Origin: an uncultured Pelagibacteraceae bacterium
GTDB lineage: Bacteria > Pseudomonadota > Alphaproteobacteria > Pelagibacterales > Pelagibacteraceae
DNA: 64,000 bases
Direction: 5' to 3'
NCBI GenBank assembly: GCA_902618695.1
Contig: CACNCB010000001.1
Coordinates: 248,001 to 312,000 of the forward strand
This document shows positions 53,654 to 54,644 of this stretch, in pieces. Under the pieces are notes generated by a model that saw nothing but the letters and a program-made list of their open reading frames with translations, did no database searches and was not told where the DNA came from. The translations under genes and the position numbers were made by a program. How positions within the stretch are numbered: the stretch's first letter is position 1; each line of letters opens with the position of its first letter.

Positions 53654-54058
53654 ATGAGTTCATTTACTAAAAATATATTTAATAAACCCAATATAGCTAA
53701 ACCCATTTTCAAGAAGAAGCGCAGCATGAACGGCGGAGCGCAAATCAAAGAAGAAGATTATTATATTTATCAATATCAAATCTATGGAGCTGCAGCATTG
53801 TTTTATAGATGCGCAGGTGGGGTTGGTGGAAAAATTTATGAATATTTAAAATTCAAAGACAACTTGAACGGAAGAGAATTCAGAGTCTTACCTAATAATT
53901 TATTTATGAAACATTGGAAGATAAGACGGCAAAGAATTAATGATGCATTACAAAAATTAGAAGCAGAGGATTTAGTTGTAGTGTTAAGGCAAAAAGGTTT
54001 CTGCAACAGAGTTAAATTAAATATTCCAGAGGTTAAAAATGAAAAAGAAAACACCTGA
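53654..54058 (+). CDS. Winged-helix-like DNA-binding protein
   Basis: 134 aa; LFMKHWKIRRQRINDALQKLEAEDLVVVLRQKGFCNRVKL resembles a wHTH. Confidence 0.5.
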   Translation: MSSFTKNIFNKPNIAKPIFKKKRSMNGGAQIKEEDYYIYQYQIYGAAALFYRCAGGVGGKIYEYLKFKDNLNGREFRVLPNNLFMKHWKIRRQRINDALQKLEAEDLVVVLRQKGFCNRVKLNIPEVKNEKENT

Positions 54059-54644
54059 TAACACAGGAAAGAAATACATAACAAAGTTCACTGCAAAGCA
54101 GCAGAAATTTATTGATATCTATACAAGCAGATATGGAGAATTGTCAGCAACAGATTGTGCTATCAAAGCGGGGTATGATCGAAGCAGCGCTCATACTAGA
54201 GCAAATGAATTGTTAGATTGGAGGAAGAGTCCTGACATAGTAAAAGCTATTGATGAACGGCAGAAATCGAACAGAGAAATTTGGTTGGTTGATAAGGAAA
54301 AGCATTTAGCAAACTTAACTAGAATTCAACAAGAAGCTCGGGCAAAAGGTCAATATGGAGTTGCGGGTAAAATGGAAGAGCTAAAAGGAAAAGTCCAAGG
54401 CTTTTACATTGATCGAAATATGACTCTTACAAAAGAAGTTACGCCTGATGAATTAAATCAAAAAATGAAAGATATGTTCCCCACAAGAGAGGAGTACGAT
54501 TTGATGTATGAATCAATGGCCAAGGAGCTTTACGGGGTTCAGGACGATTTGAAGAAAGCTGAAGTTGAAGAGTTAGAGGATAAGGAAGCAGAAACAGAGC
54601 TTGAAAAGTTTTTGGAGGACAGAGAGAGGCAGCGAAAACCTTGA
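54039..54644 (+). CDS. terS: Terminase small subunit
   Basis: FTAKQQKFIDIYTSRYGELSATDCAIKAGYDRSSAHTRANELL..PDIVKAIDER matches the Terminase_2-type N-terminal HTH pattern. Confidence 0.85.
   Translation: MKKKTPDNTGKKYITKFTAKQQKFIDIYTSRYGELSATDCAIKAGYDRSSAHTRANELLDWRKSPDIVKAIDERQKSNREIWLVDKEKHLANLTRIQQEARAKGQYGVAGKMEELKGKVQGFYIDRNMTLTKEVTPDELNQKMKDMFPTREEYDLMYESMAKELYGVQDDLKKAEVEELEDKEAETELEKFLEDRERQRKP

Follow-up and report, generated by a model that had tools for sequence, protein, structure and literature searches.

What is a phage terminase small subunit (TerS) doing in a SAR11 genome at a place where no large subunit (TerL) accompanies it? We addressed this question for a terS gene in a 64,000-nucleotide stretch of DNA, here called the window, from an uncultured Pelagibacteraceae bacterium. 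The gene lies in a 9-kb island, and our analysis suggests that this island bears only the DNA-recognising half of a packaging machine and travels by diverting the packing of an infecting virus. We consider it probable that the island is an integrated SAR11 phage satellite with TerS-directed packaging, working like the pac-type SaPIs. A satellite with an orphan TerS had been proposed in a first-pass annotation of the same DNA; the proposal is strengthened by the ends of the element, by its empty site, by its conserved relatives, one of them in circular form, and by the constraint on terS, while the packaging step with a helper TerL is one that we infer.

Identity of the TerS protein

The terS product is an SF6-like terminase small subunit of the Terminase_2 family, in keeping with the earlier remark that its N-terminus fits the helix-turn-helix (HTH) pattern of phage TerS. 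It scored 40.8 bits against Pfam Terminase_2 (curated cut-off 26.1; E 4e-10), PHROG terminase small subunit families matched it at 9e-12 and 2e-5, and a profile search matched it to the TerS structure of phage SF6 (G1P, PDB 3zqp) at 1e-8. Structure was predicted for a single chain, and the monomer model (pLDDT 73, pTM 0.42) has three N-terminal helices followed by a long helix and more helices. Its best Foldseek match is the DNA-binding domain of SF6 TerS (TM 0.87 over the target, probability 1.00, E 0.25) and not a domain from a non-TerS HTH family; the top targets were 4zc3 and 2cmp (TM 0.87 and 0.79 over the target, probability 1.00, E 0.25-0.31). All four terS products scanned from islands of this family matched Terminase_2.

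Both terminal sequences quoted in the first-pass annotation are present in the product of 54039-54644. The acidic C-terminus had been put forward there as the contact with TerL; this tail is missing from the TerS of L004 and L018, two of the relatives described below, and the idea was dropped since the tail is not conserved among the satellite copies. Conservation of satellite TerS takes in the DNA-binding domain together with the long helix and residues 104-125, the C-terminal part being variable. Residues ~104-125 are conserved in every satellite copy and in part also in pelagiphage TerS, and on the strength of this alignment they are a better candidate for the TerL contact than the acidic tail.

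An element with defined ends at lpd

In this SAR11 genome, terS sits in an element of 8,951 bp that has inserted where the dihydrolipoamide dehydrogenase gene, lpd, has its 3' end (Table 1). At the empty site in sister genomes, priA directly follows lpd, whose stop lies ~22 bases ahead of the priA start. As expected of a satellite, the window thus holds an integrated element with defined ends (att pair, empty site) and an integrase of its own. Both ends are flanked on the inside by CTTGGTWC repeats, which are probably the arm sites of the integrase; the 11/23/11 spacing of the left repeats is common to the window element, L004, L028/L084 and L055.

Table 1. Features of the element in the window (positions are those of the window; a point marks a feature without strand).
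Feature	Position	Strand	Remarks
attL core	46605..46625	+	last lpd codons AAAAGAGCAATACACTCTTAA; identical sequence at empty site of sister genomes; one copy in L055
Left arm-like repeats CTTGGTTC	46744..46796	+	copies at 46755, 46778, 46789; degenerate first copy at 46744
Tyrosine integrase	46893..48437	+	514 aa; PHROG integrase 5e-20
Conserved protein of no assigned function	48463..48927	+	154 aa; same-position homologues in L004, L017, L055
Small conserved protein	48984..49229	+	81 aa; by position, probable excisionase/regulator
Weakly conserved protein	49226..49636	+	136 aa
Weakly conserved protein	49636..50373	+	245 aa; similar in L017, partly in L020
Three small ORFs	50357..51080	+	93, 65, 82 aa
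Conserved protein	51080..51784	+	234 aa; top fold match T4 gp32 core, E 0.06, not significant
Family A DNA polymerase (PolA) with 3'-5' exonuclease	51794..53644	+	616 aa; Pfam DNA_pol_A 3e-21
Winged-HTH protein	53654..54058	+	134 aa; weakly resembles DnaD-type helicase loader
terS (terminase small subunit, TerS)	54039..54644	+	201 aa, ATG start; Pfam, PHROG, PDB-profile and fold matches
Conserved CxxC...CxxC (zinc-ribbon-like) protein	54818..55024	-	68 aa; position and orientation kept in L004, L017, L018, L055, L083
Non-coding stretch with GANTC sites	55208..55391	.	7 sites; 0/300 shuffles as high
Right arm-like repeats CTTGGTAC, CTTGGTTC	55473..55491	+	
attR core	55556..55576	+	diverged synonymous copy of lpd 3' end AAAAGGCAGATACATTCGTAG; then empty-site host DNA toward priA

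Alignments indicate that R313, R448, H470 and Y480 of the integrase are invariant across three copies, and that D18/E20, D155, D355 and H520-D521 of PolA are invariant across four. The nearest relative of PolA in cultured phages is 24% identical in a partial match only, and searches of viral contigs with the integrase and the small proteins gave no match. For the conserved 234-aa protein the predicted model offered a lead towards a single-strand DNA-binding protein, which we set aside, the gp32 match being non-significant and the model of low confidence. The non-coding stretch at 55208-55391, rich in GANTC, the CcrM methylation motif of Alphaproteobacteria, is a candidate origin or pac region by its composition. 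GANTC clusters are also present in L055 (1159-1366; 1/300 shuffles as high) and, weaker, in L004 (11152-11312; 14/300), and the motif is infrequent in relatives located at tRNA sites (7 in 8.8 kb of L017, 2 in 5.1 kb of L018).

Among the element ORFs screened with Pfam and PHROGs, terS is the sole head or packaging gene; portal, capsid, tail and TerL genes were not found in this screen, which covered all ORFs but the three small ones at 50357-51080. With neither head, tail nor TerL genes by Pfam, PHROGs and TerL searches, the element does not amount to a complete temperate prophage. Searches with four pelagiphage/SAR11-phage TerL proteins turned up nothing above chance (best E 2.1), whether downstream of terS, elsewhere in the window or in the related islands; the first-pass annotation, which saw no TerL after terS and took the next ORF for an opposite-strand zinc-ribbon protein, was right on both points. 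The TerL of HTVC023P had no match in the draft genome (~89% complete), and neither had Pfam Terminase_6N, a model weakly sensitive to pelagiphage TerL, which it scores at 20.8 bits, below its cut-off of 22. With a draft of this completeness, the cell may conceivably encode a TerL at some other locus; none fits within the bounded element. It should be noted that terS lies several kb away from terL in the cultured pelagiphages HTVC023P and HTVC027P, and separation of the two genes is therefore not diagnostic by itself. The decisive point for the orphan status of terS is that the element has defined ends with no TerL between them.

A free form of the element is represented by L055, an IMG/VR contig of 9,177 bases. 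Its two ends share an identical stretch of 99 bases and join within terS, which makes it a complete family member with a unit of 9,078 bp. This unit has exactly one lpd-type att core, located between the zinc-ribbon and integrase genes, where the chance expectation is 0.00 (shuffled sequence gives none). Integrated copies have two cores each, and a single core in the permuted L055 is therefore as site-specific excision predicts. An excised circle in cells or a concatemer in virions would have this form; L055 supplies, for a family whose window copy is known in the integrated state, the excised circular or concatemeric form that a satellite should have.

Other DNA has entered the same locus. 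The lpd 3' ends of three further SAR11 genomes (L046, L047 and L054) carry other, unrelated-looking insertions, and the gap between lpd and priA has the look of an insertion hotspot. In L084 (G401), an island at 1981-8510 occupies the lpd site between lpd att copies and has the same four CTTGGTAC arm repeats, though an integrase is missing. A 1531-aa product of this island, a superfamily-1 helicase protein, resembles defence proteins (PADLOC MkoC/MkoA, PDC-S37). Judging from its att and arm sequences, this integrase-less island may be mobilised in trans.

Relatives of the element and the separable terS

A second SAR11 genome (L004, AG-920-L03) has an element at the same lpd site, with the same gene order and a TerS that is 75% identical; L085, initially an additional candidate, is from the same genome as L004 and was discarded. 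Related islands are also found at other sites. That of L017 (G377) is 8,881 bp long and lies between perfect repeats, each of 41 bp, that derive from a tRNA-Met gene, while that of L018 (G292) lies on a contig adjoining rpoD and the same kind of tRNA-Met sequence. Across the relatives, identity to the window over the aligned length is 48-60% for PolA and 49-72% for TerS. In L083 (G009), positions 4995-11914 adjoin tRNA-Arg and show the same layout, with polymerase (polA 32% identical), HTH and zinc-ribbon genes and with an HTH_17 protein where the window element has its 81-aa protein (48984-49229). This layout is without terS, and TerS is therefore not indispensable to the wider family.

Between the window and L004, dN is 0.20 for terS (dS saturated), 0.35 for the integrase and 0.47 for polA, and by this measure terS is under strong constraint. 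TerS relatives were present in 9 of 397 SAR11-family genomes. Three of the nine (L019, L020 and L021) represent a second class of island, 5.4-5.7 kb in length and bounded by tRNA repeats of 49-56 bp, in which TerS is accompanied by another integrase and by a replication protein of the AAA_25 type; phage TerL queries had no match in these islands. TerS thus behaves as a separable module that is not part of replication, since the second class pairs it with AAA_25 and L083 keeps the replication genes without it. The TerS relatives of L022 and L024 are surrounded by many phage genes, and L024 encodes TerL too. In L021 a third copy of the repeat is present, and hence a further 1.4-kb unit.

Proposed packaging by an infecting phage and alternative roles

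In pac SaPIs, the encoded TerS sends the helper TerL to the island DNA (PMC6739421, PMC10690885), and we propose a comparable cycle for the window element. The integrase inserts and excises the 8.95-kb element at the lpd 3' end, restoring the coding end of lpd, as is shown by the existence of empty sites and by an att core that occurs in two copies in the integrated state and in one in the circularly permuted relative. The element would be replicated by its own family A DNA polymerase, probably together with neighbouring accessory proteins. TerS would then bind a site on the element and recruit the TerL of the infecting phage, and the satellite DNA would be packed in helper particles, probably as a head-to-tail concatemer. 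Phage induction, concatemer formation, pac recognition and TerL recruitment are steps that we infer by analogy with pac-type SaPIs. Some points count against a satellite: neither a pac site nor genes for capsid remodelling or a Ppi-like protein were recognised in the element, L055 may stem from cells as an excised circle, and L083 is without terS.

The TerS-like protein could instead interfere with the phage, joining or poisoning the helper TerS/TerL like Rpp of Gram-negative PICIs or acting as a host-protecting decoy. Rpp has a TerS-like DNA-binding domain and acts by joining the helper TerS (PMC6739421), and the variable C-terminal part of satellite TerS would suit such a role; conservation, however, reaches beyond the DNA-binding domain to the long helix and the 104-125 region common to phage TerS, and we regard interference as unlikely to be the explanation. 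The two activities are in any case compatible and can occur together. Very unlikely, in our judgement, is a plasmid-like integrative element without use of phages, in which the protein would be a TerS-derived DNA-binding regulator of replication or partition. The position of terS fits this: it ends a gene run that includes the polymerase and HTH genes, and the winged-HTH gene overlaps its start by 20 nt. Such a life cycle would likewise yield circles like L055, yet the second class pairs TerS with the unrelated AAA_25 protein and L083 retains replication genes without terS.

Least probable of all, and already disfavoured, is that the element is what is left of a temperate prophage after loss of the late genes, with terS surviving by chance. 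It is true that the integrase, the polymerase and TerS are of phage type, and that SAR11 genomes are small and prone to DNA loss. A decaying prophage is nevertheless hard to reconcile with a reduced gene order and intact ORFs kept in five elements at different sites (TerS 49-75%), with a complete circular or concatemeric unit in one relative, with the low dN of terS at saturated dS, or with an integrase for which no relative turned up among 50,697 cultured phage records.

The satellite that we favour resembles the pac-type SaPIs of the PICI family in its small size and integrated state, in having integrase and replication genes and a TerS of its own but no TerL, and in that its TerS is proposed to redirect a helper TerL. 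By tblastn there was also a weak match (29%, E 1e-3) to an ORF of PT1028, a record that goes by the name SaPIpT1028 (PMC12409344). The window element differs from these SaPIs in its family A polymerase, its lpd 3'-end target and its SAR11 host. Rep/primase, Stl or AlpA regulator, capsid-remodelling and Ppi genes were not found among the proteins scanned (Pfam, PHROGs, NCBIfam), and we therefore class the element as working like a PICI and not as a member of that family. SF6 G1P (PDB 3zqp, 4zc3), which the window TerS resembles in sequence and in the fold of the DNA-binding domain, acts beside its own TerL, whereas the window element has none.

Virion-encapsidated integrative mobile elements (VEIMEs) are small integrative elements of marine plankton that have been reported packed in virions. 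The window element is likewise marine, integrative and small, and it may well belong with them. Tycheposons of Prochlorococcus are tyrosine-recombinase islands, some of which are thought to be satellites, and the description of a tyrosine-recombinase island in a streamlined marine bacterium again fits. The PICMIs of Vibrionaceae are similar as minimal marine satellites that are packed as concatemers without capsid remodelling; their authors saw no terS-type packaging gene in them (PMC10803314). In this the window element, which carries terS, is different.

SAR11 bacteria are among the most abundant in the sea, and their phages are major killers. A satellite redirecting pelagiphage packaging would alter estimates of how much phage is produced, how many host cells survive and how often genes are transferred in SAR11. 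The idea is testable, as the element is bounded, its att sites are known, a circular form exists and the packaging protein is named. A broader and decidedly tentative view is that minimal satellites directed by TerS form a whole guild in SAR11, their replication modules (polymerase, AAA_25) being unrelated, and that integrase-less defence-like islands (L084) are mobilised in trans via the same att/arm sites. If this were true, separate replication types would have converged on one packaging trick, and the satellite would move defence cargo.

As to the helper, the nearest TerS proteins from cultured phages of a SAR11 host are those of HTVC027P and HTVC023P, about 30% identical and from a widespread pelagiphage type (PMC9599517). 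A phylogeny with pelagiphage TerS, which the first-pass annotation had recommended for finding the helper group, placed satellite TerS in a clade of its own (99/100) and named no helper; we rejected it as an indicator, the phage branches being long and without resolution. On one viral contig (L002, 1-813), the C-terminal part of a satellite-like terS is joined in frame to a marine phage ligase gene, the ligase part having 93% DNA identity to L086/L087 from base 346-350. The join falls within a short similar stretch, for which reason L002 was set aside as a clue to the helper, and it may represent a recombinant or an assembly chimera.
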